Made by a program: the position numbers and the translations under genes. A DNA stretch of 29,110 bases from Cochliopodium minus (Eukaryota; Discosea; Himatismenida; Cochliopodiidae), in assembly GCA_024220525.1 (NCBI GenBank), contig JAMYWO010000061.1, forward strand, positions 153,703 to 182,812, written 5' to 3'. Shown piece after piece: positions 1-29,110 of the stretch. The notes under the pieces are model-generated. The model searched no databases, was not told the DNA's origin, and saw nothing but the letters and a program-made list of their open reading frames with translations. Numbering within the stretch: the stretch's first letter is position 1; each line of letters opens with the position of its first letter.

Positions 1-73
1 TTTATTTTTTATTTTTTATTTTTTATTTTTTATTTTTTATTTTTTATTTTTTATTTTTTATTTTTTATTTTTT
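1..73. repeat. A-T6 heptamer array (window start)
   Basis: About ten tandem copies of a 7-base unit (one A, six T) run from the window edge to the acceptor of the CLU last exon. The same array in the same orientation ends piece B (5388-5451), and the two are probably halves of one intron. The contig edge falls inside the array, as expected if assembly could not cross it. Confidence 0.95.
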
Positions 74-78
74 AATAG

Positions 79-327
79 GCCGAGGAACACTATATCGCTG
101 CATTGAAAATAGATCCTAATCTCATCAACGCTTTGGAAGACTACTCCATTTTTTTGCGACACATCCGTAAATCCAAAACGGATTATTCCTCTTTTAGGAA
201 AAGGGCGATAGATATCAGGCAGAACCTTTCTCTTTTGGAGAGAAAAAAATCCATTGTTAATACTCGAATCATCACAAGGGTTCAACAAAGACCTTCTGTC
301 GAGATTTTTTTTCCAAACACAAAATAA
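79..327 (+). CDS. CLU-family protein, last exon (TPR C-terminus)
   Basis: This is the terminal exon of the CLU gene whose 5' part lies at 24185-28841 and whose middle lies at 2726-5351. It starts after the acceptor AG at 77-78, in phase 0, and reads AEEHYIAALKIDPNL..., which is the second half of a TPR unit. The first half, ending ...ERCGDWDE, is the exon at 5203-5351, which also ends in phase 0. The join restores a canonical TPR (GDWDE+AEEHYIAALKIDPN). The exon carries 82 codons and a TAA stop, with a basic tail after the TPR. It has no start codon of its own: an ATG-free open frame runs straight from the acceptor. The upstream intron is the heptamer array at 1-73. The gene is tail-to-tail with the KCTD gene, about 180 bases away. 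TPR and exon status are seen; linkage to the other pieces is inferred from phase and homology. Confidence 0.85.
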   Translation, partial: AEEHYIAALKIDPNLINALEDYSIFLRHIRKSKTDYSSFRKRAIDIRQNLSLLERKKSIVNTRIITRVQQRPSVEIFFPNTK

Positions 328-509
328 AAAAGAAAAAGAAAAAATTAATTATTTTGGAATTTTTGTTATTGTCGTAAACAAAGAATTAGATAACATTTTT
401 TGATCAAGAAGAATTGCTATCAAAAAAAAGAAAGATTAAGCAAAGTCAATGAGATTTAATTTTAAATTATTTTTTAAATTTATTTATTATTTTTAATTAT
501 TTTTTATTC
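328..509. other. Convergent 3' spacer between CLU and KCTD genes
   Basis: This is a short AT-rich spacer between two genes that point at each other. It must hold both 3' UTRs and polyadenylation signals. No ORF, RNA gene or repeat is visible apart from T- and A-runs. Confidence 0.6.
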
Positions 510-2175
510 TTAATTTTTTTCATTTTCTATTGCTGGAGGATCGAACGAGTCAATGACAAGAATGAAATTATGATACACACTGACCTCGTTTGCACCTCCC
601 GCAGAACTAGTGACCACTTGCCATCCAAGAGTAGTCAAATCATTCAGGATCATGGCAACCAATTCGTGTGAATGACTAAACAACTCCCATTGATTACCTT
701 TTTTAAAAAAAATGAATATAAAAATAAAAAGATAAAAATAAAAAAAATAATGGGATTAATTAGTAATAAATAAACTTTTTTGCCATATTTTCTTGTTTTT
801 TTGAAATTGTATTTTAGTGCGACAGAAACTTCCACAGCACCACTCAGACCTATCCAACTAGCCAACCTGCAAGCAACAATCATCACTTTTTTGAAAATTT
901 TTTTCTTTTGAGGATCGACCATTCCTTCAATATTGAAATAATAAATTCAAACAGTAAATTTCATTTTATTTTATTTTTTAATTATTTTTTTAAAATTATT
1001 TTTTTTTTTATTATTTCTTTTTTTAAAAAAAAAATTACCGTTTTCTTTCATTACATTGATCATCGGTGTAATTTTGTATTTTTGTGCAACACAAAACACT
1101 CCCAAAGGGTCCAAGTTTTTATCGAAAGACAATTTGTCATACCTATAAACCAAAAATTTATGATTTTTTTGAGTAAAAAGATTTTTAATATTTTTAATAT
1201 TATAATTTTTTAAAAAAATTTTTTTATTTTTTATTTAAATAATTATTTTCTCTGAATTTTTATTTTTGATACTTTTTTATTTTATTTTATTTTACATTTT
1301 CTGATGTTTTTTGTTTTTTATTTTTTAATAATTTTTTCACCTCAGAAAATTCAAGACAGGTTGAAAAAACTCATAGTTTTCGTCGAGTAGATACGCACCA
1401 TTCTCGTCTTTCGCCAATGTTTCGTTTTGAACATTTTCGTTCTCAAACATTTTGGCAAGGTAGGACTCGGGAACTTTAATGAGAGTGGATCTCGTTGTTC
1501 TGATTAGTTTTCCGCCACAATTGATTGTTATCCAATCTTTTATTTAAAAAAAATTAAAATTTGATTTTTTAACAAAAAAAAAATCCTAATTGAAATTTCT
1601 TTAAAAAAAAAGGCTGAATATAATATTATTAAATAAATTTTTTCTTTTGTTTGGTTAATGGATGAGAAATGTCATTTGAGGAAAGAAAATGAAAAATTTT
1701 TTTGTGAGAATTTAATATGTGCCATCTAATTTGGATCAATTTTTATATCTCAACATAAAAACTATATAATTGATCAATGAGATCCAAATTATCTTATTAT
1801 CATTTGTATATGTTGATTAATATTGATCCTTTATCGATCATTTTTAGTAACAAATTTTCAATATCTTTCTTTTAGGATATCATATTTATAATATGGTTAA
1901 TATGGGTTTCAATTTGTATTATAATAGATTGATTATCAATTGAATTGTTTTTTAAAAGTGTATTATAAATATTTTTTCTCACCAGCTTTCTCAATAGACT
2001 TTATGAACAAATTTTGATTTTCTTCAATCTTTAATTCTTCCAATTTATCAATCTTCTGTTCTATTGTGAGCTCAGAAGATACAGAAGAGATTTGTTTTTT
2101 GACTTCCATTTCTACCAATTGCTTCAAATATTTGATTTGTGATTCTGTAAAGACTTCTTTGATTTCCAAATCCAT
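510..2175 (-). CDS. KCTD-like BTB/T1-domain protein, 5 exons
   Basis: Predicted exons on the minus strand are 2175-1983, 1536-1341, 1142-1039, 924-784 and 697-510, totalling 822 bases (273 residues) in one frame. Residues 1-64 form a charged, probably coiled N-terminus (MDLEIKEVFTESQIKYLKQL...). Residues about 65-165 are a BTB/T1 (K+ channel tetramerisation) domain: DWITINCGGKLIRTTRSTL, then DENGAYLLDENYEFFQPVLN, then FLRYDKLS. The NxGG, RSTL and LNFLRY signatures are typical of KCTD proteins, which usually act as oligomeric adaptors for cullin-3 ubiquitin ligases. The C-terminus (about 166-273) is not recognised; it includes WELFSHSHELVAMILNDL. Exon 4 only stays in frame if its donor is GC (at 783-782), giving a GC-AG intron; a one-base error in the A-run is the alternative. 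Intron 1 (1537-1982) contains a dispersed repeat. Domain call is strong; the exon 1 join and the GC donor are inferred from phase. Confidence 0.8.
1690..1862 (+). repeat. Dispersed intronic repeat, copy 1
   Basis: This non-coding stretch is closely similar to part of 17516-17912. Two blocks, 1728-1753 and 1808-1834, are essentially identical in both. Inside it, 1728-1737 and 1781-1790 are perfect inverted 10-base arms (AATTTGGATC / GATCCAAATT), so a hairpin of about 60 bases could form. It sits antisense in intron 1 of the KCTD gene. No ORF or transposase is present. It could be a MITE-like or other non-autonomous element. Confidence 0.75.
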
Positions 2176-2454
2176 AAAATGAAAAAATTTTTATGAACAA
2201 ATTAAAAGAAGAATATGAATATATTTCTCCTTTTATCAAAAATCCTTGATTTTTTTTTGATCAAATGGTAAAAAATGTGGTATTTGATTTTATCCAAAAA
2301 AAATTTTTTTTTCTTTTTTTTAATTTTCATATTTAACAAAAAGTGATCAAAGAAATCAACAAGAAATATTTTTGCAATGTTTTTGAGAGAGGAGGATTTC
2401 TATTCAAGCATTAGATTATTCAAGTCTTACCCATCTAAGGTTTTTATCATCAAT

Positions 2455-2646
2455 TTAGATTTTGATTTTGTTTTTGTAAAGAGAAATTGCAAGATACTCA
2501 ACAATCATAAACAAAATAGGTTTTGGAAAATAGACAAACATTTTCTTTTTCTGAATCAAAAAGAGTTTAAAAATTGTTTTTTGGAAAGAAAGAGGAAACA
2601 ATTTGTGTTTTTCTTTGTTCCATAAAATTCTTCTTTTCAAATCTTT
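2455..2646 (-). pseudogene. Broken ankyrin-family gene, 3' fragment
   Basis: Only the last 63 codons and a TAA stop are present (KDLKRRILWNKEKHKLFPLS...), reading leftward from the N at 2647. The fragment nearly matches the last 63 codons of the ankyrin gene at 5453-6493, including HKLFPLSFQKTI and FPKP near the end, with a few substitutions. Similarity continues into the 3' flank (2377-2454). The coding sequence stops exactly at the N, so this is more likely a gene cut by the assembly than a real pseudogene. It is a paralogue rather than an exact copy. The open frame on the opposite strand (2377-2625) is its shadow. Confidence 0.75.
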
Positions 2647-2647
2647 N

Positions 2648-2679
2648 ATTTTTTATTTTTTATTTTTTATTTTTTATTT

Positions 2680-2716
<37 letters not shown>

Positions 2717-2724
2717 ATTTTTTA
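2648..2724. repeat. A-T6 heptamer array (start of piece B)
   Basis: About eleven copies of the A-T6 unit, with one 6-base variant near 2696, run from the N at 2647 to the acceptor of the CLU exon at 2726. The array at 29044-29110 has the same unit and orientation and follows the donor of the preceding CLU exon. Confidence 0.95.
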
Positions 2725-2725
2725 G

Positions 2726-5351
2726 GTGACCATACCTTGTTTTGCAGTGGATTTGATTTCATTGTTTGACAGCCATTTATCTGTTTACCCTTCTCTTTCC
2801 CATTTTCAACTCACTCAATTCATTCACAGCAGAGGAATAAATATGAGGTAAGCAAAATCAATTTAAAAAAAAATAAAATAAATTTAAAATGAAAAATAAT
2901 GTTTTTAATAAAATTCAAAAAAAATTTTAAAATACAGAAATTGAAAAAAATTTTTATTTTCAAGTAAAAATAATAAAATAAAAAAATTTAAATCAAAAAT
3001 AAATATATCTGTCATAAAAAAAAATTTAAAAATAATTATTAAAAATAAAATAACAATCAAAAAAAATTTTTTACCAAAAAAAAAAAAAATAAAACAAAAA
3101 AAAAGATTAAAAAAATAATTAAATTAAAATTTAATAAATTTATTTTTTTTAAAAAAAAAAAAGATACTTGGGAATGGTGTGCATCAGAATGAAAAACAGC
3201 CCATACGCCAAAATAGTGATGCTCGAAATGGTAGCGCGAATCATCAAAAACGAGCTCCGCGCCAAACTCCGCAAGAAGATGCGTGACCTCGAGCTCATCG
3301 TCGACGAGCCCTACCGCAACACCATCACCGATTACCTCAACGACGTCTTCTCTAAGAAGAGGCCTCTCAACCAGAAGATTTGGGAGGACGATTTCGTCTC
3401 CATTTTGAATTCCAAGTTCAATTTCAATAAGGAGACTTACTCTTTCTTCCCTTCTAATTTGAGATCTTACATTTTTCTTCCAAAGCTCGAAGTTGGTATA
3501 GCATTTTTTTTTTATTTTTTTTTTTTTATTATTTTTATTTGGTAAAAAATTTTTTTGATTGTTTCATTTTATTTTTGATAATTATTTTAAAATTTTTTTT
3601 TATTTTTGATAATTATTTTAAAATTTTTTTTTATTCTTTTGTTTTTAATTTTTTTCTTTTATTTTGTTTTATTTTTTATTTATTGATTTATTTTTATTTT
3701 TATTTTTATTTTTCTTTTTCAATCCTTATTTTTAATTTTATTTTTAATTTTATTTTTAATTTTATTTATTATTTTAATATTTAAATTTTTTTTTTTAATC
3801 AGCATTTTTTTTTTATATTTCACAATTTTTATTTATTAATTTAAATCTTGTCTAATCGTTTTATTTGTTTTTTAATTTGTAGTCATCAATATTTTTTTTT
3901 TAATTTTTTTTTACAATTTTTTGATTATTTTAAATTTTTCCTCAAATTTTTTTATTTATTCATTCATTTTTTTTAAAATTAATTATTTCTTTTTTTTAAA
4001 GGAACAACCACATTCGACGGATGTTTTTATTTGTACAAAAGAATAGAAGATATGACGGGTGTCAGTTTCGACAGTAACTTATTGGAGCTCTTGAAAACTT
4101 CGCCTGACATCTACGACAAGTACGATCAGATTTTCATGAACACCGACCTCATCGACATGGGTGATCGTGTCAAACATTTGGTAATCTAAATTTAACTTTA
4201 AATTTAAATTTCATTTTTACATTTTTTTTTTATTTTATTTTTTTATTTTTTTATTTTTTTATTTTTTTTATTTTTAAATATTTATTTTTTTAAATTTTAT
4301 TTATTATTTTGAGTTTTTTTGAACTGTTTTTTTATATTTTTTATTTTTCTCATTCTTATTTTTATTTTTTTATTTTTATTTATTTCATATTTTTGTTTTT
4401 TAATTTTTATTTTATTTGAATTAATTTTTTTAATTTTTTACATTTTTATTTTTTATTTTATTTTTTATTTTTTTTATTTTTTTATAATTTTTTTATAATT
4501 TTTTTTTTTAATAAAATAGGATGTGGTTTCAAATGCGAAAGGAGACACTTACATGTTCCACGCGAGAGAAAAAGAGAAACAAAGACATTTGTTGGGAGCA
4601 GAACATCTCTACAAATCCGCCCTCCACTTCTTCAACTACGCCCTCAACTCCGACCCCAACGACGTCATGTTGCTCAACAACACTGCTAAAGTCTTGCAGA
4701 AATTGGAAAGCATCAACCTTTGCAAAAACAAAGGTGTCGAGTCCATCTCTGAGCTCATTGATGAAATAGAGAAAAATGGTTTTTTTATTTTATTTTTTTT
4801 ATTTTTTATTTTTTTTTAATTTTTGTTTTAATTTTTTTTTTGTTTATTTTATTTAATATTGTTTATTTTTTAATTTTTTATTATTTTTTATTTTTTATTT
4901 TTTATTTTTTATTTTTTATTTTTTATTTTTTATTTTTATATTTTTTTTAAATTTTTCAATATTTTTTTAATTTAATTTTTTATTTAATAGATTTTATTTT
5001 AATAGATTTTATTCTATATTTTATTTAATATTTTTAATGTCATGTTTTTATTTATTTTTTATTTTTTATTTTTTATTTTTTATTTTTTATTTTTTATTTT
5101 TTAATTTTATTATAAAAGGATTCTATTTATTTAATGAAACTTTATTTACATTTTTATTTAAAAATTAATATTTTGTATGTTTTTTTATTTTTTTTATTAA
5201 AGGAGACGCAACATCCCTTTTTTCTTTAAATTCACCCGGAATTTTCACTGCCAACAACTATTATTTAAGAGCACTCAGAGCAGACAACAACAATGCCACA
5301 ACACACAGAAACTACGCTTTATTTAAAGAACGTTGTGGAGATTGGGATGAA
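2726..5351 (+). CDS. CLU-family protein, middle part (5 exons)
   Basis: Exons 2726-2847, 3164-3495, 4002-4180, 4520-4778 and 5203-5351 total 1041 bases (347 codons), entering and leaving in phase 0. The first exon encodes the end of the CLU core (TIPCFAVDLISLF, then HSRGINMR). Across the splice this becomes GINMRYLG, a hallmark of the CLU/TIF31 family, followed by EMVARIIK. The third to fifth exons hold helical TPR-like repeats (AEHLYKSALHFFNYALNSDP; NNYYLRALRADNNNATTHRN). The previous exon is at 28687-28841 and the next at 79-327. CLU proteins are cytosolic, bind mRNAs for mitochondrial proteins and affect mitochondrial distribution; that role is family knowledge, not shown here. Exons at 3230-3350 and 4600-4690 are unusually rich in C-ending codons. 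Introns contain heptamer arrays (4883-4936, 5054-5102). Family assignment is firm; order relative to the other pieces is inferred. Confidence 0.88.
4883..4936. repeat. A-T6 heptamer array in CLU intron
   Basis: About seven to eight A-T6 units lie within the intron between the exons ending at 4778 and starting at 5203. Orientation is the same as all other arrays in the window. Confidence 0.9.
5054..5102. repeat. A-T6 heptamer array in CLU intron (second)
   Basis: Seven A-T6 units lie in the same intron as the array at 4883-4936, separated by about 115 bases of ordinary AT-rich intron. Confidence 0.9.
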
Positions 5352-5387
5352 GTATAAAAATTTTTGAATTTTTGATTTTTAATTTTT

Positions 5388-5451
5388 ATTTTTTATTTTT
5401 TATTTTTTATTTTTTATTTTTTATTTTTTATTTTTTATTTTTTATTTTTTA
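5388..5451. repeat. A-T6 heptamer array (end of piece B)
   Basis: About nine A-T6 units follow the donor of the CLU exon ending at 5351 and run into the N at 5452. The array at 1-73, which precedes the next CLU exon, has the same unit and orientation. Confidence 0.95.
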
Positions 5452-5452
5452 N

Positions 5453-6493
5453 TCATTCAAAGCTGATCTCAATTTTTCTCCAAAATCTGATATGAATGCT
5501 CTTCATTTTGCTTGTATGAAAGGAATGGATACTTCGATCATCGATTTCTTAATTTCAGAAAAGCTAGATGTCAATACTTTATCCAGGATTTCCAAGGGAA
5601 CACCTCTTCATTTTGTAACTTCTGATTACCTGCCAAAAGTAATTGATCATTTATTATCTCTTGGTGCGAATATCAATGCAAAAAATAGAATAGGATATAC
5701 TCCTCTTCATTGTGCTTGCGGTACAGATAATAGATCTATTCCCATTTTAATTTCAAAAGAAGGAATCGATGTCAACCTCAAAAATGATGAAGATTTCTCT
5801 CCACTTGAACACTTATGCGACAAAGATCCTGAATATCTGGATGGAGAATTGATAAAGAAACTGATTGAATTCGAGAAAACAGATTTGAAGAATTTCAAAA
5901 TGAAAATAGACAATAGTGAAAGATATTCTCTCCTGTTTTGGATCATTTCTATTCATTCAAAATTATCCTTATCCTACAAGAAAGAATACAATGAAAAAGC
6001 ACCTATCTTTTTTGAAATTTTTGAATATCTTCTTTCTCGAAAAGAATTGGAATGGAAGGATGCCAAATCTAATCAACAGAGTTGTCTTCATTTTTCAGCA
6101 TCAAGATATCCATCAATTGAGATGATTGAGTTGATGATTGAGAAGGGAATGGATGTAAATGAAAAGGAAGATGATCTTACTTGTCTTCTTGGTTCAATCT
6201 ACAAAGAAAACACTCATTTATTTTTCATTCTTTTGTTGAATGGAGCAATTCTTGATGAAGAATCAGAATTATACATGGGAAAAGAAAGAAGAAAATTGGT
6301 GAAAGATTTGAAAAGAAGAATTTTATGGAACAAAGAAAAGCACAAATTATTTCCTCTTTCTTTCCAAAAAACAATTTTGGATCTCTTTTTGATTCAGAAA
6401 AAGAAAATGTTTGTCTATTTTCCAAAACCTATATTGTTTGTGATTGTCGAGTATCTTGCAATTTCTCATTACAAAAACAAAATCAAAATCTAA
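5453..6493 (+). CDS. Ankyrin-repeat protein, 5'-truncated at the N
   Basis: The open frame starts directly at the N at 5452 with no start codon, so the N-terminus is missing. The visible 346 residues contain at least five ankyrin repeats: MNALHFACMKGMDTSIIDFL, GTPLHFVTSDYLPKVIDHLL, GYTPLHCACGTDNRSIPIL, a degenerate SPLEHLC unit, and SCLHFSASRYPSIEMIELMI. Ankyrin repeats bind proteins. The last 65 residues form a separate module (WNKEKHKLFPLS ... YFPKPILFVIVEYL) that recurs in the gene at 6869-8835 and the fragment at 2455-2646. Its position after the ankyrins and its P-x-P-hydrophobic helix recall F-box- or SOCS-type C-terminal adaptor modules; that is only an analogy. The downstream gene, same strand, begins about 375 bases later. 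Confidence 0.85.
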   Translation, partial: SFKADLNFSPKSDMNALHFACMKGMDTSIIDFLISEKLDVNTLSRISKGTPLHFVTSDYLPKVIDHLLSLGANINAKNRIGYTPLHCACGTDNRSIPILISKEGIDVNLKNDEDFSPLEHLCDKDPEYLDGELIKKLIEFEKTDLKNFKMKIDNSERYSLLFWIISIHSKLSLSYKKEYNEKAPIFFEIFEYLLSRKELEWKDAKSNQQSCLHFSASRYPSIEMIELMIEKGMDVNEKEDDLTCLLGSIYKENTHLFFILLLNGAILDEESELYMGKERRKLVKDLKRRILWNKEKHKLFPLSFQKTILDLFLIQKKKMFVYFPKPILFVIVEYLAISHYKNKIKI

Positions 6494-6868
6494 ATTGATG
6501 ATTATAACTTTGATGGATAGGAATTTGAATGCTCGGATCCTTGAATAGAAATCCTCCTTTTTCAAAAATATTTCTAAGATTTTGGAAGATTGCTTGTTTA
6601 TTTCTTTGTGTAAAATAATTAAAAAAAAATAAAAAATTAACAAAAAAAGTTGTTGATTTCTTTTTGTAAATTTGAAATTAAAAAAAAATAAAAAAATGAG
6701 ATGAATGTTTTTTGTTGAACATTATTTGCTCCTGCCAAGTTTGTTGAGAAAAAATTTCAAAGAATAAAGAAGCAGCCGGTAAAATTTCAACAAATGAACT
6801 TTTATATCTTTTTTTTAAAAAATTTTCTGAAGGGATTCATTTTTAATATTTCAAACAAATTTAAAAAA
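6494..6868. other. AT-rich spacer upstream of second ankyrin-like gene
   Basis: The first 80 bases are similar to the flank of the fragment at 2377-2454, so the ankyrin duplication includes 3' flanking DNA. The remainder is AT-rich 5' flank. No RNA gene or convincing ORF is seen; the in-frame codons upstream of 6869 are hydrophobic low-complexity and are left out. Confidence 0.5.
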
Positions 6869-8835
6869 ATGGATATTATTAAAAATTTCTCTAAACATAA
6901 AATTGAAGAATTTTGTGATTTCCATCAATCATTTTGTGGAGAAGGAATGGGAAAAGATCATTGCGATAATATAGTAAAAAATATTCTTCAAAAATAAAAT
7001 AATTCAACAAGCATCATTTAACCATTTGCTTATTCCCATTGTTTAATCTCATCAAATTAAGATCCCATTGATTGTAAAAAGAAAAGATTTTTATGATGAA
7101 ATTTTTAAAGGAAGAAAAGAAGAGAATATACCAGATTGGGATGAATATAATAAGAGAATGATGAGCAAATCAGATCCGAGATGCTGTCAAGATGTGATCA
7201 CATTCGCTGAAAATTATCATCTCACAAAAATAAATGGCGCCAAAAATAATAAAAATGTGGATGACGATATAAAAGAAGAGAAACAATCAAATATGAAAGA
7301 ATTTGATAGGATATGCGAAGCAGGAGATAAAACAAAATTTGACGAATTTCTTTCAGAGAATAATAATAAATTGAGAAAAGATGAATGGACTCTTTATCAT
7401 TGTTGCAAGGGAGGAAATGTAGAAATGATCGAGAAGTTGATGGAGATGGGAGCGAGAGATTATAACAAGGGTTTGAAAGGAGCGTATGAGATGATGAATG
7501 TAGAGATAATGGAGAAAATGATACTGAAAGGGGCTGATGATTATTACAAAGTGTGGGATGTGGTAGTATCTCATCAAAAAAGCAAGAACTCACTATTTAA
7601 AAAAACACTCGATAAAATTTATGGTAAATTTTTAATTTGTAATTATTTTTTATTTTTTAATTTTAAATATTTTCATATTTGAATAAAAATTAATTTTAAC
7701 TTTTATTTCTTCATTTTTTAAATTTTTTAATTTTAAAAATTTTAACTTTTATTTCTTTATTTTTATTATAATTTATATTACATTTTTCTTATTTAAAATT
7801 TTAATGTTAATTTTAATGTTAATTTTTGGAATTTTTAATTCCGTGAATAATTTATGTATCATTTAAATGTTTTTAATTTTTTTTTAAAAAATTTTTCTAG
7901 ATTACCACGCCTACAAACTTAGTTTGATGGATGAAATTAATGGAAAGGGATCAGAAGAAGAAGCAGAAATATTGGGAGAAGCAACAAGAGAAGCGTTACG
8001 CAACTACGACACAGACTGCATCGAAATTTTATTGGAAGAAAAAGAAAAAGAAACTGTACAAATAATGGAGAATATTTTTGACACGCAAGACCCTTTTTGG
8101 TTAAATTTTATCTCTAAAAAAATCCACATTGTTCCTGATTTGGAAGATCTTAAACATGTTAGTAAGAGTGTGATTCTCCAATCTCTTTTGATGAATATTT
8201 ACAAGTTTAACCATGCTTTGCTTCCTCTTATTGATTTGAACCAAGTTTACAATGTTTTTTTAGGAGATACTAAAATCACTCTTTTGCATGAAAGTTGCAG
8301 TGAAGACAATCACGACACCATTTTTTATTTGCTTTATTATGGCGCTAAATATGATATTTCTGTCGAAATTGGAGTAATTTTAATTTTTTTTTATTTTTAA
8401 TTAAAAATAATTAATTTCTTTTTTTTTTTGTTAATAAAGGAACAATCCTGCACTGCTGAAGAATTGGCCTTTGAATTATTTCAAAAAGATAAAAAACATG
8501 GCTACAATCTTATCAATGACTTTAAATCTGGGAAAATATGGAATGTGGAAAGACATAAATTGTTCCCCAAATCTGAAAAAACTCGAGTTCTCCACTTCTT
8601 ATTATTTATCAAATTTTTTTCTACTCAAATACTTCATAAGAAGATTCCAAAACCTGTCCAGTTTATCATAATTCAAAATTTTTTGATTCCTTTTGAACAC
8701 AAAAACGAAGAAAATCTTTCTTTAAATGAAATTGATAATCTTAATGAAGAAGATGACAATGAAAGTTTTTCTGAAAACACCAAAAGAAATAACAAAAGAA
8801 AAAGAAATTCAAGTGAAGAAAATTCTAGTGAATAA
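6869..8835 (+). CDS. Ankyrin-like protein with shared C-terminal module, 4 exons
   Basis: Exons 6869-6973, 7062-7623, 7901-8373 and 8440-8835 join in phase to 1536 bases (511 residues). The start at 6869 (MDIIKNFSKHKIEEF) was chosen because upstream codons are low-complexity. Degenerate ankyrin-type repeats occur at about residues 110-200 (WTLYHCCKGGNVEMIEKLME, then GARDYN; a following unit has EIMEKMILKGADDY) and again before residue 375 (TLLHESCSEDNHDTIFYLLY, then YGAKY). The fourth exon carries the module shared with the gene at 5453: WNVERHKLFPKS, then IPKPVQFIIIQNFLI. After it comes a charged Ser/Asn/Glu/Lys tail with a basic cluster (KRNNKRKRN), a possible nuclear signal. Function is unknown beyond probable protein binding. 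It looks like a diverged tandem relative of the 5453 gene on the same strand. Confidence 0.8.
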
Positions 8836-9137
8836 ATAAATAATACTATTAAAGATAAAAAATATAAATTTTTTTAAAAATGTAAAAAGAAAAAATTGTT
8901 CGTTTTCAACAAAAGTTTGTTTAATCCATTTTTCAAAATTAATGAAAAAAAAAGAAAATTTTTTATTCCTCAATAAAAAAAGGTTTATTGAAATCTTTCC
9001 ACAAAAAATACAAAAGAATTTTTAAAAGAAGACTTCCAAAAGAAAAAGAAAAATTTTGAAAGAATGCCTTTAGAAGAAAAAAAGTAAAACGAAAAATTAA
9101 ATAGAAGGAAAAAAAAGAAGGAAGGTTGTGAAACTCC
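8836..9137. other. Convergent 3' spacer
   Basis: This A-rich spacer lies between the second ankyrin-like gene and the RhoGAP-like gene, which converge on it. No ORF, RNA gene or repeat is visible. Confidence 0.5.
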
Positions 9138-11636: not shown

Positions 11637-12940
11637 ATTAATAATAAAAAATATATTAGATTGTGTGAAAAAAAATTAAAAATAATATTATTATTATTAT
11701 AAAGGTATTTAACCATAATATTAAGTATTTGAGTAGATATTATGTTATAATGTAATTTGTATTTAAAGGTCTTTTATAATTAATTTTTTTTTTTTGAAAA
11801 GGTAATGTTTTGATAGATTATCGTTTTATTATTACAAGGATTTTGAAAGCTCCATTTAGTGGGATATTGTTTTAATGATACATTGTTATTCCCCATTATT
11901 ATTATTATTGGTATATTACAATTGCTTATTGTTATTTTGATGATAGTTTGAAGTTTATTTTGATTTGATGTGTTGGTAGGAAAAATTATACAAAGAAAAA
12001 AGGAAAAAGAAGGGAAAAATTTCTTTTATAAAAGAGAAAGGAAAAAATTAAGATTTTTTTTTTATTTTTTATATTAAAATATTTTTTAAGAGAATCTTTC
12101 AACAAAAAAGGATATTTTGTTCAAAAATAACTTTAATAAAAAAAGAGCTTCAAAGATACTGCTATCATCAAATTAGAAAAAATAAGCAATGAAAAAAATG
12201 AAATTTTTTTTTTTCGGAGGAAATATATTGAAATGAAAATTATTTTTATTTATTTAGAAAAGCAACCATCAAATTATTTTTGAAAAAGGGAAAATTGTTT
12301 GAAATGTAGACCAGATTCGTTATTTGATTAATTTAAATTCTTCCTCTTATAGAAATTAATTTTTATTTTTTTAACGGAAATAAGAAAACTGAATAACAAT
12401 ACATTCCTTTATATTTTTTGTATTGTTGATTTAAAAAAAAAATTAATTCAAGATATTGAAGGTGATTTAACAAACAAATATTAAAGGAAAATTAAAAATT
12501 TAAAGAGGAAGAATTTAGGTATTTCAATAATTTAAAAATAATTATTATTTAAAAATTATAAATCACACTAACGGAAAATTTTAACTATCTTTCAATTTAA
12601 ATTTTCTCAAAAAATCGATTATAAGAACTAATATAGTAATATGTAAAAGAAAACGAGATTTAACTTCATCCAATAATTAAAAATTTAATAAAAAAGGATG
12701 AAAGAAGTATCTTTTTTTTTTTTGAAATGTCAAAAGTAAAAGTAAACAACAATTAGAAGTTCTTAGGAAAAATCAAAGAAATTGAAAGAAGGAGTCAAAA
12801 AAATAAATATTAAAATCTAAAAACCTTGATGGAGAAGCGTTGGCAAACAATCATTAAAAGAAAAGCTGTTTGTATTAGACTAATTCTCAACATTTTAGAA
12901 AAAAATTTAATAAAAATAATTTAATATATAAAAATTTAAT
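11637..12940. other. 1.3 kb AT-rich intergenic region
   Basis: This is the longest gene-free stretch. It separates the 5' end of the EF-hand/RhoGAP-like gene from the 3' end of DIMT1. It holds short TTA/ATT trinucleotide runs (about 11688-11700 and 11897-11909) and many homopolymers. No open frame of useful length, tRNA-like cloverleaf, inverted repeat or exon of a known family was found on either strand. Confidence 0.5.
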
Positions 12941-14312
<1,372 letters not shown>

Positions 14313-16387: not shown

Positions 16388-16939
16388 AAAAAAAGTTTTT
16401 TTTTTTAAAATTTTTTTTTCTTGATCTTTCAGTTTTGAAGTGAGAAATTACATTCACTTACCTAATTGGAGTGAACAATCAGATTTATAAGACCAAACAA
16501 ACAAGTTAAATATTTGATCCTTTTTTCTCGTATGTACTCAATTTTTATATCATAGTTTAACTATATTATCTTTGTTGTTTTAACAATCGATTCTACAAAT
16601 TTTTTCAATCAAACAAAAATTAAACAAAACAATTGAAATACTTTTAAAAAAGAAATCAAAAGCCAAACAATATTTTTAGAATAGTTTAGTTTCAAGATTT
16701 TTTCATCCCATAATTCTTTTATAGATTTCTTTCCTCAACAGTTTAGGTCTTTTGGAACATTTTTCTTGTTGCTTTTGATTTTTGATAATAAATTTTTAAT
16801 TAATTTAAAATTAAATATAAACCCAAAAAAATATAAAAAAAAATTGAAATAAATTGTTAGATCAAACTGTAAATAATATAAAATCACTTCTATTTATCAC
16901 AGGATTTTCAACCTCAAATCTATCAAATACAAATAATAA
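16388..16939. other. Intergenic spacer, 552 bases
   Basis: This is AT-rich DNA holding the 3' flank of the TPR-like gene and the 5' flank of the zinc-module gene, which read in the same direction. No ORF, RNA gene or repeat matching other parts of the window was seen. Confidence 0.5.
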
Positions 16940-18987: not shown

Positions 18988-19085
18988 TTTGATAAAACTA
19001 AAAAAAAAAATTTTTTTGTTCAATAAAAATTATTTATTCAAAATTTTTTTATTTTTTTTTTTTTAAAATTTTTTTTTTCAAATTT

Positions 19086-21847
19086 TTAATCATCATCGTC
19101 ATCATTTTCTTCATCATCAATGTCCTCTCCTTCCTCTTCATCCTCCTCATCAACATCCTCCATCCCAAGCTCATTGTTCTGTTTCATGATGACACTAAGT
19201 TTTCCATCAGAAATGAGAACACAAGAAGCCATGTTACCTGATCCACAATAATGACTCGATGAAAAAACAGTTAACACTTTTGCTTTATTAGTAAATGAAA
19301 CACCGACATGTTCCCTAAAATTTTAAAAAAAAAAAAAAAATATTAAAAAAATAATTGAAAAAATAAAAATAATTAATAAAATAATTTTACTTTTCGTGTG
19401 CTCTTATGATGTATGTACAACCTGTTTTTTTGAGAAAATTTTCTACTGCTTTTGGTCCAAACATACAAACATTTTCACCTCTTTTATTTGGCTAATTCAA
19501 AAAAAAAAAAATAAATTAAAAAATAATTTTTTTTTTTCAAAATATTTTTCTTACACCAAACCATTCGTGGAAACCTTTTGATCCCAGATCCTTTCTTTCA
19601 TTTGTTTTTGCAGGATCTAATTCAGACAACAATAAAATTACAAAATGAGTTTCAAAAAAATAAAAAATTAAAAAATAAAAAATAAAATAAAAATAAAATA
19701 AAATTAAAATTGAAAAATTAAAAAATAATAAAATAAAAAAAAAATAAAACTGATATTAAAAAATTAAAAAATTAAACTAAAAAATTTTAAAAATAAAAAA
19801 TTAAAAAATTAAAAAATTAAAAAATAACAAAATTAAAAAATAAAAAATAATAAATAATAAAATTAAAAAATTAAAAAATTAAAAATAAAAACTAAATAAT
19901 AAAAAAAATTAAAAAATTAAAAAATTTAAAAAATAATATTAAAAAATAAAAAAATAAAAAAAAAATAAAACTAATATTAAAAAATAAAAAAATTAATAAA
20001 TAAAAAATAACAATATAAAAAATAAAAATAAAAATTTTTATACCAGCCCAGAGGAGATCGTTAACAAGAGGACTGGTAAGAACAGGAGGTCTTTTGATGG
20101 AGGAGATGTCATCAAGGATGTTGGGGCTGTCAACCAAAGCTCTGGGCAAACCTCCATGTACGCAGAAAATTTTATTGTCTATCACCGCAGCAAGAGGCAA
20201 CAAATCGAAACAATGGTTTATTTCTCCAAATATTTTTTTCCCATTCTTTTTTCCTTTTTAAAAAAAATTTTTTAATAAAAATAACAAAAATGTAAAAATT
20301 AGAATGAATGAAAAATAAAAATGAAAAATATAAAAATTAATAAAACAAAGAAATAAGAAAAGTAAAAATAAATAAAAAATTAATATTAAAAAAAAATAAA
20401 AATAAAAAAAAAAGTAATAAAATTAATAAAACAAAGAAATAAGAAAAATAAATAAAAAATTATTTATAAAAAAAAAAGTAATAAAATTAATAAAACAAAG
20501 AAATAAGAAAAATAAAAATAATAAAAATAAAAGTTTTTAATGAAATAACAAAAATAAAATAATAAAAAAAACAAATAATAAATGATAAAAATGTAAAAAT
20601 TAATTTGATGAAAGAAAATAATTTTTAAATGAATAAAATAATCAAAAAGATGGATTAAAAATAAAAAAATTAATGAAAAAATTAATTTAATGGAAAATAA
20701 AATAATTTTTTACCATACAACTTTATACATTGGAACAAAAATGATCCTTCTCCATAAGTATTAAGATCTCCATTAACATCTTTATGAAAAAAATTTAAAA
20801 TTGAAAAAAAAAAAAGAAAAAAAATTTTAAAATTAAAAAAAATATTTTAATTGAAAAATAAAAAAATAAAAAAGAAAAAAATATTTAAAATTAAAAAATA
20901 TTAAATATAAAAAAAATAAATAAAATTTGAATTTTTTTTTTTTTTTTGGTTACCTTTGTCTTCGTGGTTCCCTCTGAGCAAAAAAACTTTTTTTGGAGAT
21001 TTTAGTTTGAGAGCCAATAAATAAAGGGAAACTTCTAATGAATGAGGACCTCTGTCAACATAATCTCCCTTTTAAAAGAAAAATAAGAATAGAAATAAAG
21101 AAAAATAAAGAAAAAAAAAATGATATATAATAAAAAATAAAAATAAATAAAAATAAATAAATAAAAATAAAGAAATATAATGAAAAATAAAACTGTGGAA
21201 AAATAATAAAAATTAAAAAAAAATAATAGAAAAATAATTTTACTAAAAACAAAAAGTTTCCAAGGGCAATATTTATTCCAACTTTCCAACACATGTTTTG
21301 GAAAAAAAGAAGATCTATTGGTTTATTTGTAAAAATTAACAAAAAAAAAAAATTTAAAAAATTCTTTTGTTTTTTTTTTACCTTCATAATTTCTGCATTT
21401 ATTGTTTTTTGATTTATTTTGAAAATATTTGATTAGTGATTTGAATATTTTTTTTAAATATCAGATTTGTTGGTTTACCCGTGGAGATCTCCAAAAACGT
21501 AGGTGGGAGATTCCAACCGCAACAAAGAAGCGTCCCTTTTCAAAACATCTTTGACAGCAACACAAAGCTTCAAAATTCTTTAATAAAAAAATAAACAAAA
21601 ATCTTAAAAATAAAATGAAATAAAAAATAAAAAAATAAATTTAAAAGAAAAATTAAAAAATTAAAAAATAAAAAAATAAAAATAAAAATTAATTATTTAC
21701 TTTTCCATTGGAATCAGTTTGTCTTCAGTCCATTCGTGACTCGGCTCATTTAAAGCGTAGTTGAACCCTTTGACAGGGAGAAAGTAAGAGCGCAAATAAC
21801 TGAAAACTTCCGTGGAAAGATCGGTGGTGGCAAAGATGGTGTCTTGT
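19086..21847 (-). CDS. PPP-family serine/threonine protein phosphatase, at least 10 exons
   Basis: Exons on the minus strand: 21847-21701, 21577-21479, 21392-21382, 21314-21244, 21068-20954, 20779-20714, 20253-20044, 19616-19555, 19491-19391 and 19314-19086. All phases agree, giving about 370 residues. PPP motifs are in order with metal ligands present: [44 protein letters not shown]...FG, IIRAHE and [10 protein letters not shown]. The enzyme removes phosphate from Ser/Thr using two metal ions. The C-terminus has an acidic tail ([19 protein letters not shown]). Exon 3 is only 11 bases and encodes G-N-Y-E of the active-site loop. The first visible exon enters in phase 2 and has no ATG upstream on this strand before the next gene; the only in-frame Met in it is at 21708-21706, so the N-terminus is unresolved. 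The subfamily is not certain; it is not a plain PP1 or PP2A. Confidence 0.9.
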
Positions 21848-22143
21848 CTATTTTTTATTATTTTTTAAAAAAAATTTTTAGATGGGAAAAATTAATAGAT
21901 TTTTTTGTTTTGAAAAATAGAAAAGAAAATTTAAAAAAAAATAAAAATCTTAAGATAATTTAAAAACAAAAAGAAAATAAAAGTTTTGTTTGATTTAAAA
22001 AAAAAAAAAAGAAAAGAAAGGAAAAAAAAAAAAAATGGTAAAAAAAAATGGTTAAAGTGAATTAAAATCAGTATGAAACTAGTATTTTTAAAAATGGACA
22101 GGATAGATTAAATTTTGAAGTAAGAGGGGAAGTAAGTGAGAGA

Positions 22144-23363
22144 ATGTACTGCGAATGCAAAAGATTGATGAGGGAACCCAAAATATGTTTCGTATGTTCC
22201 AAGTCATACTGTTTGGATTGCCATCAAGGGAAAGAGAAATGTGCCAAGTGTGGAGAGGGGATGGAGGAGAACAAAAAACTGGGGGAGATGGTGGCGAAGA
22301 TAAGAGTCAAGTGTAAAACATGCAGTCAAGAAATGATGGCGGAAGATATGCAAAAACATCCGCAAAGCGAAAATGAACACGTGGAAAAGTGTGATGGTTG
22401 TGGAGATGAGAAGATAAGACAGTTGTTGGAGATTCATCAGATGAAGTGTCCGCCTTTTGTTTTCAAACATAATGTAGAACTTAAGAAGAGCATGTGCGAG
22501 TTGAAAAATAGTTGGGAGGAGATGAAGGAGAAGTTTGAGAAGAGCATTCTTGAGAATGAAAAGTTGAAGAGTGAAAATGTAGAAATTCAAAAGAACTTGA
22601 ATTGTATCAAAAAGAAAGTGTTTGATCCAAAATTGGAAAATGGTAAAAAAAACTTTTTGGAAAATACTTTTCGTTCTTCTCGTGATTTTTATGGTGATTA
22701 TTACAAAATGATTTTAAAGAAAAAGCAGTAGAAGCGTTATGCATGTTTTTGGGGATCGGAATTAAACAAGACAGAATAACAGCAAATAAAATTATCATAA
22801 AATGCTCTCTTAAAGGAAGTAAACTGGCAGAAGGAATCAAGCACTATTACGGATGGGAAACAAAAAAAAACCATGAAAAATCACACCAAATTTTCACTCA
22901 AGTAACCACAGAAGACCCAGAGATGAAGAACAAAGAGACCGTCTACTGTTGGAACTACCTTGGCTTACAATACAAGTGCGGATTAGGTGTCTCCATTTGC
23001 TACAATAAAGCGATTGAGTGTTTTGAAAAGGGTTTGAGTTTGGAGAATCCTCTTTCGATCCACAACATTGGAAACTTTTACTTGGAGAAGAAGAACTATA
23101 GACGTGCGTTAGAGTTTTACGAGAAATCTTGCAAGTTGGGAAATTCTCTTTCTATGAACAACATCGCTCACATTTACTGCTTGAGTGGGGACTTTAAAAA
23201 TGCGAGATTGTTTTATGAGAAGGGATGTGAATTCAACAATCCTGCTTCTTTTTACAACCTCGCTTTGTTTTATATGCATGGTACAGGTGTGCATAAGGAT
23301 ACTGAAAAAGCTATCCAATATAATAAAATTGCTTCAGATTTGGGATATCAAACCCAAAACTAG
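22144..23363 (+). CDS. RING-like / coiled-coil / Sel1-repeat protein, 2 exons
   Basis: Exon 1 is 22144-22642 and exon 2 begins at 22726 or 22729 (tandem AG acceptors, both in frame), giving 377-378 residues. Residues 1-90 are Cys-rich: KICFVCSKSYCLDC and EKCAKCGEG resemble the second half of a RING finger, and VKCKTCSQEM plus EKCDGCGDE resemble a TRAF-type zinc region. The first Cys pair is CEC rather than CxxC, so E3 ligase activity is uncertain. Residues about 115-165 are a charged coiled coil (ENEKLKSENVEIQKNL). Exon 2 is a chain of Sel1-like repeats (YKCGLGVSICYNKAIECFEK; NFYLEKKNYRRALEFYEKSC; HGTGVHKDTEKAIQYNKIAS). RING plus Sel1 suggests a ubiquitin-pathway scaffold. The start at 22144 follows an in-frame stop, so no earlier Met fits. 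The 3' end converges with the small gene at 23548. Confidence 0.85.
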
Positions 23364-23547
23364 TGATAATACTTCACAAATTAAATCATTTTTTAAAAAA
23401 TTTATATTCCTTATCAATCAATTAATTAATCATTAAAAATTTGATGATTTCCAATCAATATATATATCTTCATATTTCTTGTTATTTTCTATATATTAAA
23501 TAATTCTCAAATAAATTTTCCTTTTTCTATCTTTATTGATTATTTCA

Positions 23548-23896
23548 TTACCTTTTTAATTCTTGTACACTCACAATTGAATGTGCAACTGTGGTCAATT
23601 GCAATCCGACTTCATTTCTCTTCATATTTACCAATTCTATATCTCCTTGTTTACTTACACAATGAATGGTTGGTGATATTTTGAAAGTAACATTTTTCTT
23701 TGTATTTGGAGAATATAATTCTATGTTTTTTGATATAATCAACAAATTATTCGAAAAGATTCAGTATTTTCTATCATATTTTACCTTGAGTTGTATCTTC
23801 CTCTTCATCTTCTTCTATATCCTTTTCGCTTGCAAAATTAACTTTTTTGGTTATTTCTTTCACTTCTTTGACTGGTGTATTTGCTTTTCTTTTCAT
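23548..23896 (-). CDS. Small charged protein, 2 exons, unknown function
   Basis: Exon 1 is 23896-23785 and exon 2 is 23720-23548, with a 64-base intron and matching phase 1, giving 94 residues. The N-terminus is basic (MKRKANTPVKEVKEITKK), followed by an acidic run (EKDIEEDEEEDTTQ). The C-terminal 55 residues alternate in a beta-like pattern (TFKISPTIHCVSK; EVGLQLTTVAHSIVSVQELK) and end at a TAA. It could be a small nuclear or chromatin-associated protein, but I recognise no family. Its 5' end is 288 bases from the first codon of the CLU gene, so the two are divergently arranged; its 3' end faces the Sel1 gene. Confidence 0.6.
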
Positions 23897-24184
23897 ATTA
23901 TGATTTATAAATTCTTAAAAGTTGGTAGATTTTGGTACTTTTCTTCTTTTTTTTTTATTTTTTTTGATTCTTTTTATTTTTTAAATAAAATTTATAATTG
24001 AAAAAAAAAAAGAAAATATTCTTCGCATTAATTAATTTAGATTATATTTTTGATAATCAAAACCAGATATTGATTATTAAAGTAAATTTTTAAACTGGAT
24101 CAAAAAAGAGATTTTAATTTTTTTTTATAAATTTGCTTCAATCCAAATTTTCTAAACAAAAAAAAATTTGAGTTTTTTTTCTTC
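23897..24184. promoter_or_regulatory. Divergent upstream region, small gene / CLU gene
   Basis: These 288 bases separate two outward-facing start codons and must contain both promoters. They are AT-rich with T- and A-runs. No specific element is recognised. Confidence 0.45.
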
Positions 24185-27100
24185 ATGCAGAACTCAATAA
24201 AGGACATTCTCAAAAATTCAACAAGTTCCCAAGAAAATTTGAAAAGAATAACCGGATTTATAAGACAAAATTATCCAGAATTTTTTAAATCATTCGAATG
24301 TTGGTGCAATATAGATAATATCTTAAACAAAATAGAAAATAAGCTTTATGATAATGAAAAAAGAGATCTTGATCTTCATTTTTTATTGGATAAATTTATA
24401 TTAGGAAATGAACCTGTTCCATTCGATCTATCATTGAAAAGGAAAGCAGACTTAATGAAGAAGAAATTATATAATTTAGGAAGCGAAATCAATTTCAAAT
24501 TCATAGATGATCCTATTGATTTACTTGTAAATAAAATTTTTTTGGAACTTTTAATAAGATGCGTGATATTAGAAAAATTAATTTTATAAAATTATCCTTC
24601 ATATTTCAATAAACTATCAGAATATTACAATTATAAACAATAATCTTGTGGATATACATTAAAATTTAAAGCATTTTTAATTGAAAATAATATATCGAGG
24701 ATATTTTATTATTATGCTTCATTTCCTTATTTAGGGTTTGATGAATGCATCATTGGAAAAAATTCTCCAAAGAGCAGTGAAAGATTATAGAAAAGAAGAA
24801 AATGCATTTGCATTTCCTGGAATAAGAATGACACAAGTAGATCCAAACACACAATTTCTCAAAAGAAATAGGAGCAGCAATTTGTTTGTGAAGAAAAAAG
24901 AGAAGGAGACTGAAAAAGAGATATCAAAAGAATCATTAAATGCACCCAGTTTGGAAATATTGAATAAAACCTTCGAGACTTCCATCTCCACCATCTTCAA
25001 TGCACTGACATCGATCAATGAGATGGACATGTTGAAATCAAAGGAAGGATATAACAAAACCATCGATGTGACATCAGAATTGATGATGATAGATCATAAC
25101 ATGGATTCGAGGGAAAAGTTTGAAGATACTTTAAGAATCAAAGGAAATGATCTGATCAAATACTTTTCTTGCTGGAGAGATATCTACAAATACATCAGGA
25201 AACTGGTGGCTGCCACCCTCAACAACAAGCAAATCGTGGGGTACATTTGCTACATCGTGGATGTTCACGTTTGCAATGTGGGAGGCAGTGTAGTGATAAC
25301 CAAAGAGTTGAAAGAGAAGCTTATCAATTTGCAAAAGACAATCACTTCCGATAAAGAGTTTAAGAATCTTCACAATAAAATTGGGGTTCCTGAAATGTTG
25401 CTTCTAGCAAAAGAGAGTAATCGACAAAAATTTTTTTTCTTTTTTTAAAATACTGCATATTTTTGTTTTTATCTTATTTGTTAATTTTGTTTATTTTCTT
25501 TAGTGGAAGAAGTTTTAGGTAGACATGTTGAGGATTGGGTGGAATTAATTTTAAAGACCAAAAACGATCGAAAAACTAGTTCAAGTGCACACAGTTATTT
25601 CAGTGTAGAACTTTTGTCTGTGAAGAGATCCAAACTTCCCAAAAAGCCTTTGACGAAACCAAATTTTATAAAGCTGTTTCAAAAGGGAAGCAGCTCAATA
25701 AACACAACAAATATTTATGTATATACAGATGATACCAAACTCATATTCAAAAAAGCAGAGAAAATATCGATTATCCTCACTGAATTTAACATTTCGGAGC
25801 TGCTTTGGGACAAAGATTCTTTGGAAAACCAGATTTTGTTTTCTGTTCAAGACTTTTCAAACACCAGTAACCTTAACATTGTGAAGCTTCCTTATGACTT
25901 TTCCATCCGCTTCGAAAATCAAGAAAGGAGAAATGCTTTTCTTTACAAACTTTCTTATTCCAAGGGAAGAATCGAGAACATTATCAAAACGAGGGAGAAT
26001 GACGTAAAATATATTTTGTCGCAACCTCTCCCTTTACCCAAGGGAGGCAAAGAAACTGTGGACATTTACACTACTGACAAGGGAAATAACAACTATGGAT
26101 CTGCTTACGTCACTTTGAAAAACACTTTGAGGACAAAGAGCTATGGCGGATCGGAGTTGATGAACAGTCAATTTTTGGAGTTGAGGAACAGCACTATTTT
26201 GGACAGCCAGGATCTTTCCCTGGGAGATTCTAAAAAGATGTCGGTGGGAATCTATGATAAAAAAGACAACAGCAACAGTGAAAACAACAGCAATAAGAGT
26301 GATAAAAAGGATCCTTACAAAGATGATTCTGGAGACAGCAGTGAAAAACAAGGGGATAACTATGGTCCTGATGGAAGTGATAGTGACAAGAGTGGGAGTG
26401 AAGACAAGAGTGCCAGTAAAAGCAACTATGTTGAAGATGCTTCAAGTAGCGAAGAAAAGAACGAAAAAAACAAAAAGAAGGACAAAAAAGACAACAAAGT
26501 AAAGAAAGATGACAAAAAAAAGTTGAGAAACAGTAATTATGTTGATGTTGATTCTTCTAACGATGATAAAAAAGATAAGAGTGATGATCATGATAACATT
26601 TTGAAGAAAAAAAAAGGGGAGAACAATTATTTGCAAGATGATTCTGAAAACACCAACGAAGATGAAAAGGACAAAGCAAGCAAAGAAGAGTCCAGTGAAG
26701 AAAATTATGGAGTGGATTACAGTTCTGACAAAAGCGATGAACAGAAAGACAAGAAAAAGGACAAAAAAGAGAAGAGCGAGGAGAAATCCAAAGAAGAGAA
26801 GGAGGATTCATCTGAGGAAAATGGAGGGAACTACGGAGCCAATGATTCATCTTCATCTTCGTCCGAGGAAAAAAAAAAGAAAGACAAAAACAGAGTGAAG
26901 ATTAGAAATCTCAAAAAAAAAATCAGCAACGAAGACTTCAACAAAAGCCTCTCTGAGACCAACCTCTCCGAATCCATCGTCAATCTCTCCGAAGAGAACA
27001 TCAGGTCCAACAACCTCTCGTTGAACAGTTCGGAGAGTCCCCTCATCGTAAAGAAGAAAGGAGGGGAAGAGGAGGAAGAGGATCCTTTTACTGAACGCGG

Positions 27101-28841
27101 GCAGTTCGATTGGAACGCGGAGTTTCAGGAGCACGTCACTGCTTTGAGGAATCCTTATCTCCGTTCGACTTCTAGGCGACGCCACACGGATGCTTTGATC
27201 AAGCTTGCTGAGGATTTCGTTTCTTGTGCCAAGCGTTACGGAAAAATCATCATCAGTGAAGTTTATCTTCCTCTCGACAGAAAAACCATCAAACCAAGAG
27301 CTATAGGAGGTTTATATTTTTATTTTTACATTAGTTAATATTTTTACATTAATTTTTTATTTTATTTTTTTATTAATTAATATTTTTTCATTAATTTAGT
27401 TAATTTTTTAATTTTTATTTAATATTTTAAAATCTTTTTTTTTTTTATTTAATTTTAAATTTAACATTTTTAATATTTTTATACTTTTATACTTTTTATT
27501 TTCTAGGGATTATTGGAGGGGAGAAATACATAGTTGCCAATTTTTTGTTCAAATTTGCTGTGGACAGAGATTATGTTTTCGACGGAGACCATCATTATGC
27601 CGCCAAAGTGGCAGGACACGAACTAAAAGGTCTCAAAGCTTTCTTCTCTGTTAATACTCCCGATCTCCATTTTCCATTAATGGCTCTCATTGATTACAGA
27701 GGATTTAGGTTCAAAAAAAAAACTAATTTGTTTTTCTTATTTAGTATTATTTTTTATTTTATGTTAATTCATTATATTTTTTTTTTTATTTTTTTAAAAA
27801 AAGATTGATTGCTTCTGCTTTATTGCCTTTGTCAAAGAACTCGTTAAAGTATGGAAGTGGTAAAAATAAAAGATTTTTACATTGTGTTATTTTTTTTTTT
27901 GCTATTTTATTATATTTGTTATTTTTGAGTTTTTATTTTTGTTTAATTTGTTTTTAATAATTTTTATTTTTTTGAATTTAATCTTTTTATTAATTTGTTA
28001 TTTTTTTATTTGTTTTATCTTTTTTTGTGATTAATTTTTTATTTATTTATTATCTTTTAATTAATTTTTTTTTTTTAAAAGGAGATGGAGGAAGAACGAT
28101 ACACAGAGATAACCAAATGTTGGCGAGCAGAATCGAACAGTCTTCCAAAACCTTTAACTTGAAACTCCATCCATGTGGACCGGAAAACGTGATGATGGCC
28201 ACTTGTTGCGACATAGAGGGACACATAGGGAAAGATGGCAGGTTTTACATGTTGGATTTCAGTCGTACTTTTCCTTGTACTTCCCTCCCTAAAAAACGAG
28301 AAGATAGAAAGAAAGGTAATAAAAAAAAAGTTCAAAAAATTATTAAAAACAATTAAAAATCTTAAAAATTAAAATATTAAATTAAATTGGAAAAAATTTT
28401 AAATAAAAAAATATAAATGAAATTAAAATTCAAAAAAAAATTAAAAAATATTGGAGATCTTTAAAATTTTTCAACAGTTTAAAATTTGTTGATTAAATGA
28501 ATAAGTAATTTTTTAAAAAATAAAAAATAAATTAGAACAAAAAATAAATTAGAATGAATAAAAAATGAATTAGAATAAAAAATAAATTAGAATAAAAAAT
28601 AAATTAAAATTTAAAATAAATTAAAATTTAAAATAAATTAAAATTTAAAATAAAAAATAAATAAACATTTTTTTTTATGATTAAAGGATCTCATTTGTTT
28701 GAGATGTTCAGACAAGAGTTTGTGAAGAGTTGGCAGATTTTCCCTTTGTGTTCGGACGCTTACTCCCACTTTGTTAAATACAACGAAGGAGCAAAGGAAC
28801 ATCGTTGGGAAGTTGATTTGGCGACATTCTTTCTGGAAAAA
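24185..28841 (+). CDS. CLU-family protein, 5' part (7 exons)
   Basis: Exons 24185-24526, 24735-25416, 25504-27309, 27507-27708, 27804-27859, 28082-28315 and 28687-28841 total 3477 bases (residues 1-1159), all in phase, ending in phase 0. Residues 1-340 are mostly helical and unrecognised; the stretch around residues 50-140 is faintly RGS-like in helix pattern. Residues about 355-500 look PH-like (NIYVYTDDTKLIF; a terminal helix ENQERRNAFLYKL). Residues about 600-840 are a highly charged Ser/Asp/Lys linker with six NYxxDxS motifs. From about 880 the CLU domain begins: GQFDWNAEFQEHV, EDFVSCAKRYGKIIISE, HELKGLKAF, IDYRGFRLIASALLPLS, then the DGGRT and CDIEGHIGKDGRFYMLDFSR blocks. The next exon is at 2726. 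CLU proteins act in the cytosol on mitochondrial mRNA and distribution. Exon 1 may instead be a separate 134-residue gene (24185-24589), but its donor at 24527 gives a perfect phase join. Confidence 0.88.
26340..26860 (+). repeat. Coding NYxxDxS repeat region in CLU linker
   Basis: Six degenerate protein repeats each begin with N-Y-(G/V/L), then acidic/Ser residues and a Lys/Glu-rich spacer: DNYGPDGSDSD, SNYVEDASSSEE, SNYVDVDSSNDD, NNYLQDDSENTN, ENYGVDYSSDKS and GNYGANDSSSSSSEE. Spacing is about 20-40 residues. The DNA diverges, but the NY core and acidic-Ser stretch persist. Confidence 0.8.
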
Positions 28842-29043
28842 GTAAAAAAAAAAATTATTTTTTATTTTTTATTCTTTTATTTGATTTTTTCATTTTATTT
28901 TTTATTTTAAATTTATTTTTTATTTTTTTATTTTTAAATTTTTTAATTTTAGTTTTATTTTATTTTTATTTTTTATTTATTTTTATTTTTTCATTGATAT
29001 TTTGTTTTATTTTTATTTTTTATTTTTGTATTGTTTGTTTTTT

Positions 29044-29110
29044 ATTTTTTATTTTTTATTTTTTATTTTTTATTTTTTATTTTTTATTTTTTATTTTTTA
29101 TTTTTTATTT
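29044..29110. repeat. A-T6 heptamer array (window end)
   Basis: About nine A-T6 units run to the window edge, following the donor of the CLU exon ending at 28841. Same unit and orientation as the array opening piece B (2648-2724). Confidence 0.95.

Follow-up and report, generated by a model that had tools for sequence, protein, structure and literature searches.

Contig order swapped at single-N joins in the Cochliopodium minus assembly: a CLU-domain gene printed in three pieces

The right end of scaffold C61 (182,812 bases) of the Cochliopodium minus assembly GCA_024220525.1 (44.65 Mb, 598 sequences) carries a single gene of normal make-up, rich in introns and encoding a CLU-TPR protein, with its exons printed out of order. 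The stretch of DNA analysed, which will be referred to as the window, comprises 29,110 bases and lies directly downstream of 4,892 Ns. The gene reads in the order A-B-C through three contigs that the assembly presents as C, B and A. Both printed junctions are false, and the same swap was observed at four further single-N joins. Almost certainly, the arrangement results from a misassembly in which a gene broken at repeat arrays was scaffolded as C N B N A. The original prediction, made for this locus alone, had regarded misassembly as by far the simplest reading; this is supported by the gene order, by exact overlaps of 77 and 68 bases on scaffold C159, by two more split CLU paralogues and by copies of an ankyrin-repeat gene. 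The error is, however, a recurring swap of order at single-N joins and thus goes beyond that single-locus reading. The locus itself is biologically ordinary, its scrambled order being an artefact and not a real feature.

Window layout, gene model and domain content

A base scan of the window detected only two Ns, single bases at 2647 and 5452, which divide it into C, B and A as predicted. The contigs, their joins and the terminal A-T6 arrays are as follows.

1..2646, no strand: contig C; A-T6 array at the left end, then the last CLU exon, then other sequence
1..74, plus strand: A-T6 array opening contig C, exact run of 74 bases
2647, no strand: single-N join C/B, order swapped
2648..5451, no strand: contig B; five CLU exons, A-T6 array on each end
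2648..2702, plus strand: A-T6 array opening contig B, exact run of 55 bases
5383..5451, plus strand: A-T6 array closing contig B, exact run of 69 bases
5452, no strand: single-N join B/A, order swapped
5453..29110, no strand: contig A; left end within an ankyrin-repeat coding frame, right end (the scaffold end) in an A-T6 array
29038..29110, plus strand: A-T6 array closing contig A, 73 bases of exact period 7

Splicing the contigs in the order A-B-C yielded an in-frame model of 13 exons, separated by GT-AG introns, that encodes 1588 residues plus a stop; this corresponds exactly to the 1589 codons counted beforehand.

24185..24526, plus strand: CLU exon 1, start codon (spliced gene model)
24735..25416, plus strand: CLU exon 2 (spliced gene model)
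25504..27309, plus strand: CLU exon 3, charged linker and start of the CLU domain (gene model, Pfam)
27507..27708, plus strand: CLU exon 4 (spliced gene model)
27804..27859, plus strand: CLU exon 5 (spliced gene model)
28082..28315, plus strand: CLU exon 6 (spliced gene model)
28687..28841, plus strand: CLU exon 7, final exon of contig A, ending in phase 0 (gene model)
2726..2847, plus strand: CLU exon 8, opening contig B in phase 0 (gene model)
3164..3495, plus strand: CLU exon 9, eIF3_p135 region (gene model, Pfam)
4002..4180, plus strand: CLU exon 10 (spliced gene model)
4520..4778, plus strand: CLU exon 11 (spliced gene model)
5203..5351, plus strand: CLU exon 12, first part of the TPR, ending in phase 0 (gene model, Pfam)
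79..327, plus strand: CLU exon 13, remainder of the TPR, stop TAA (gene model, Pfam)

In the spliced model the exon end at 28841 and the exon start at 2726 are both phase 0, and the same holds for the pair 5351 and 79, in agreement with what had been proposed for both joins. Exon 9 ends at 3495 with the donor GTATAG, and exon 10 begins at 4002; an end of exon 9 at 3491 was rejected, as it would need an acceptor without AG. The shares of the protein encoded by the three contigs (A, residues 1-1159; B, 1160-1506; C, 1507-1588) are complementary with zero overlap.

Pfam searches identified a CLU domain (PF13236) at residues 877-1095 with 186.8 bits (curated cut-off 24), followed by eIF3_p135 (PF12807) at residues 1187-1264 with 37.1 bits (cut-off 22) and TPR_17 at residues 1476-1509 (cut-off 24.4). 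The latter crosses the B/C join at residues 1506/1507 and scored 29.8 bits in the joined protein versus 24.8 bits from contig B alone, which bears out the claim that joining 5351 to 79 rebuilds a TPR. PF15044 and PF05303 are the N-terminal domains of canonical CLU/TIF31. Both were absent from the 1588-residue protein at E ≤ 0.01 and from its first 522 residues at E ≤ 1, and residues 1-522 yielded zero Pfam matches over the curated cut-off. The designation CLU gene here denotes a CLU-domain protein with PF13236, PF12807 and TPR, whereas the N-terminal domains of canonical CLU/TIF31 were not found.

A protein search with the joined CLU protein returned 109 relatives, the best-scoring named ones being those of the amoebae Pelomyxa schiedti and Balamuthia mandrillaris. 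The CLU-domain records of these two species share PF13236 and mostly also PF12807 and TPR with the window's protein, at 33-37% identity; the relatives P0001 and P0002 show the domain order CLU, eIF3_p135, TPR. Compared with these amoeba proteins, the window's member differs by its long N-terminal part, the first 522 residues without a Pfam match over the cut-off. PF15044 was detected in only two of the 109 listed relatives, P0108 and P0109, both the weakest matches. In other CLU relatives an RGS match (P0002, P0004) or a PH match (P0020) precedes the CLU domain, all under the Pfam cut-off. A literature search on clustered mitochondria with tetratricopeptide in amoebae, and on the Clu domain with the RGS domain, retrieved nothing.

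Order of the pieces and the printed junctions

To test the order, piece A (from residue 870), B and C were joined in each of the six possible arrangements and aligned to the 109 relatives and to two open frames of the same genome. ABC was the sole best order in 66 of the 111 cases and tied in 35 (34 with CAB, one with BCA), in a sample that is not unbiased for this comparison as the 109 relatives had been retrieved with the A-B-C-joined query. CAB was the sole best order in six cases and ACB in four; CBA, the order as printed, did not rank first for any of the 111. Considered pairwise, A before B won 109 of the 111 comparisons, and B before C won 69, lost 8 and tied in 34. The alignment to P0001, by its name a Trinity transcript ORF, which shows 43% identity and covers 97% of the query region, runs gapless through both the A/B and the B/C join.

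As had been predicted, both breaks lie in introns with the same A-T6 array, and all four inner contig ends carry it. The array ends overlap in the sense of the gene, from B to C over 74 bases with one mismatch and from A to B over 60 bases with two. These overlaps are non-specific: exact matches to the left end of C324 were also seen for the right ends of A (67 bases) and B (64 bases), and the right end of contig A aligns to the left end of C as well, over 77 bases with three mismatches. The order of the C61 pieces is therefore fixed by the gene and not by the arrays. In the whole assembly, with overlapping places counted, 42 bases of the array were found 2003 times in forward and 1934 times in reverse orientation.

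The two printed junctions are false, because the outer contig ends cut ankyrin sequence that is continued in other copies. The sequence at the left end of contig A is present in three other copies in the assembly, with 66, 69 and 69 of 70 bases matching. Upstream of the point at which contig A starts, the three copies carry coding sequence and no array; over this stretch the copies share 109-111 of 120 bases with one another but just 35-36 of 100 with the terminal part of contig B. The upstream frame holds a stop in one of the three copies, which counts against this evidence. The right end of contig C falls within an ankyrin gene, read from the 3′ end of that gene. Two copies, on C548 and on contig A itself, continue here with ankyrin coding sequence, whereas the window shows the array. 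Such ankyrin-repeat copies at contig ends probably also break the assembly.

An open frame at 5351-6493 crosses the N at 5452 in a mechanical way, as the array lacks stop codons in this reading frame. A gene across this printed join was rejected, since the ankyrin frame of contig A is open from the first base and the upstream sequence of the other copies differs. The ankyrin-repeat gene copies, 95-99% identical in the matched stretches, are located at window positions 5453-6493 and 2347-2646, C548:1576-2551, C61:126504-126631 and C61:104473-104542.

The left end of contig A also matches, in 69 of 70 bases, the right end of the contig ending at C61:104542. This contig end may be the true left neighbour of contig A or may belong to a paralogue. 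The contig is the first after a long gap, with at least 2,871 Ns before it, as expected. The copy at C61:126504 likewise matches in 69 of 70 bases, so that C61:104542 is not unique as a neighbour, and simply reversing the entire scaffold would fail to bring the C61:104542 contig beside contig A, which has to be counted on the opposing side.

Recurrence at other single-N joins

Scaffolds C159 and C324 were read whole and C61 in part, and ten single-N joins were seen (three on C61, two on C324 and five on C159). A swapped order with orientation kept fits all six of the ten joins that were testable, and the printed order fits none. The other four, C61:104543, C324:33400, C159:44277 and C159:71040, are without an order call; the open frames found at contig ends of C324 and of C159 (contigs 3, 4 and 5) gave no order for them. 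The array is present on one side only at seven of the ten joins and on neither side at three. None has it on both sides, unlike a true break in an array.

On C159 three contigs repeat at their right end the left end of the contig printed before them: contig 1 that of contig 0 (77 bases, exact), contig 2 that of contig 1 (68 bases, exact) and contig 3 that of contig 2 (52 bases of array). Each of these overlaps is the reverse of the printed order. The 77- and 68-base overlaps are not simple repeats. No further full-length identical copy was found among the 40 matches scored for each string (out of 192 candidates for the 77-base and 49 for the 68-base string), the remaining 38 scored matches per string being similar or partial copies. 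Both strings nevertheless belong to dispersed repeats, which counts against their specificity. Among the 40 scored matches each, the repeat families at these contig ends show identities of 96-100% (C159:1-77) and 85-100% (C159:6925-6992). Elsewhere on this scaffold, the two ends of the contig at C159:89114-100940 appear by eye to be inverted copies of each other over ~38 bases. Contrary to a prediction made beforehand, C159 contig 4 does not end in an A-T6 array, which counts against the present reading.

Two further CLU paralogues, on C159 and C324, are likewise in order only when the contigs are swapped. The paralogue on C159 matches residues 943-1137 on contig 2 and 1156-1404 on contig 3; weaker in-order matches extend to residue 1567, with scores of 57 and 44 that lie within the chance range (up to 59). 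On C324, residues 875-1036 are found on the first contig and 1117-1548 on the next. The 80 residues between these pieces (1037-1116) are missing, and the array units at the two pieces are unlike (ATTATTTT versus ATTTTTT), both of which count against the assignment. All four breaks in CLU gene order that were found (two on C61, one each on C159 and C324) coincide with single Ns, and within any one contig the strong matches to the CLU genes of the three scaffolds are in order.

The sole other short gap read, the 100-N gap at C324:20662-20761, behaved differently. Both its flanks repeat the same 77 bases exactly: the two contigs overlap in the sense in which they are printed but were not merged, and the fault may therefore be limited to single-N joins. 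We consider it somewhat more likely than not that most or all single-N joins in the 44.65-Mb assembly are reversed and that this has silently disrupted the order of many genes with numerous introns and A-T6 arrays, all of which could be repaired by one rule (Y N Z becomes Z, Y). For users of the assembly this means that genes over single-N joins can seem scrambled, truncated or fused, and that gene predictions, synteny and rearrangement claims built on such joins would be wrong. The suggested correction rule is simple and can be checked at every join.

Origin of the swapped order

We infer that a short-read assembly with a word length of ~77 would have broken the gene in the two introns in which the A-T6 arrays exceed the word length. 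Small contigs bounded by arrays, such as B, would then have been left to the scaffolder. The expectation that short reads fail in these arrays fits the data, as exact A-T6 runs did not exceed 79 bases in the stretches scanned and the eight at contig ends measured 52-75 bases. Scaffolding would have exchanged the order of the contigs without turning them round and written a single N at each join. The likeliest cause may be read pairs of the wrong sense, i.e. inward-facing pairs within a long-insert library: if these were taken as outward-facing, the right-hand contig would be placed on the left, the gap estimate would become negative and a single N would be written. Scaffolders may write a negative gap estimate as one N. 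The available portions of PMC6733440 and PMC8389630 contain no statement that a single N denotes a negative gap. That long-insert libraries contain inward-facing pairs is documented by counts in the part of PMC4060946 available. The window resembles a misassembly of this type in its swapped order, its kept orientation and the negative gap that the joins would imply.

Another conceivable course, which we regard as unlikely but deserving some weight, is that the swap was introduced after assembly, by file handling or curation that reversed the order without reverse-complementing the contigs. Reversed order with kept orientation would be equally expected in this case, and the tested joins on the three scaffolds all fit. 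The 100-N join of C324 is, however, correctly ordered, so the reversal is not universal, and the swap seems tied to single-N joins.

It is very improbable that A, B and C stem from different CLU genes and fit together by coincidence. CLU-related loci are indeed numerous in this genome, and the gene is one of them: the last 651 residues of the protein gave 74 matches on 32 contigs, the window's own included. In favour of the order A-B-C, one paralogue at C74:10914-12710 covers query residues 46-641 of these 651 with 33% identity and forms one frame except for one TGA. Against a mixture of genes, the three pieces are complementary, in phase at both joins and gapless in the alignment to P0001, and among the 74 matches listed none beyond C61 exceeds 72% identity.

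The least credible explanation, with a probability close to nil, is a natural scrambled locus of the ciliate-germline type, whose pieces would be reordered during development by means of matching short repeats (pointers). Scrambled germline genes of ciliates have their blocks out of order and share sequences at the block ends. The window is alike in its out-of-order blocks, and the 52-77 bases shared by neighbouring contig ends are superficially pointer-like. It differs in that every break found in CLU order sits on a single N while strong matches within contigs are in order, in that the longest overlaps equal the putative assembly word of 77, the same length recurring exactly at the correctly ordered 100-N gap as a fixed word length would give, and in that the printed junctions are contradicted by continuous ankyrin copies. 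The genome moreover holds several CLU paralogues with their parts in order, among them those on C84, C192 and C205. A second near-identical CLU copy was absent among the matches listed, although a somatic genome could lie outside this assembly. The original prediction had kept natural scrambling as a remote alternative, and it is now set aside in favour of misassembly. A circular molecule cut elsewhere was also rejected, as A-B-C cannot be rotated into C-B-A.

Rfam and tRNA scans of the 29,110-base window gave zero matches. Two further open frames of the window carry recognizable domains, namely a RhoGAP domain on the minus strand at 9141-11240 (38.2 bits, cut-off 24.5) and Sel1 repeats on the plus strand at 22698-23360 (55.1 bits, cut-off 30.7).
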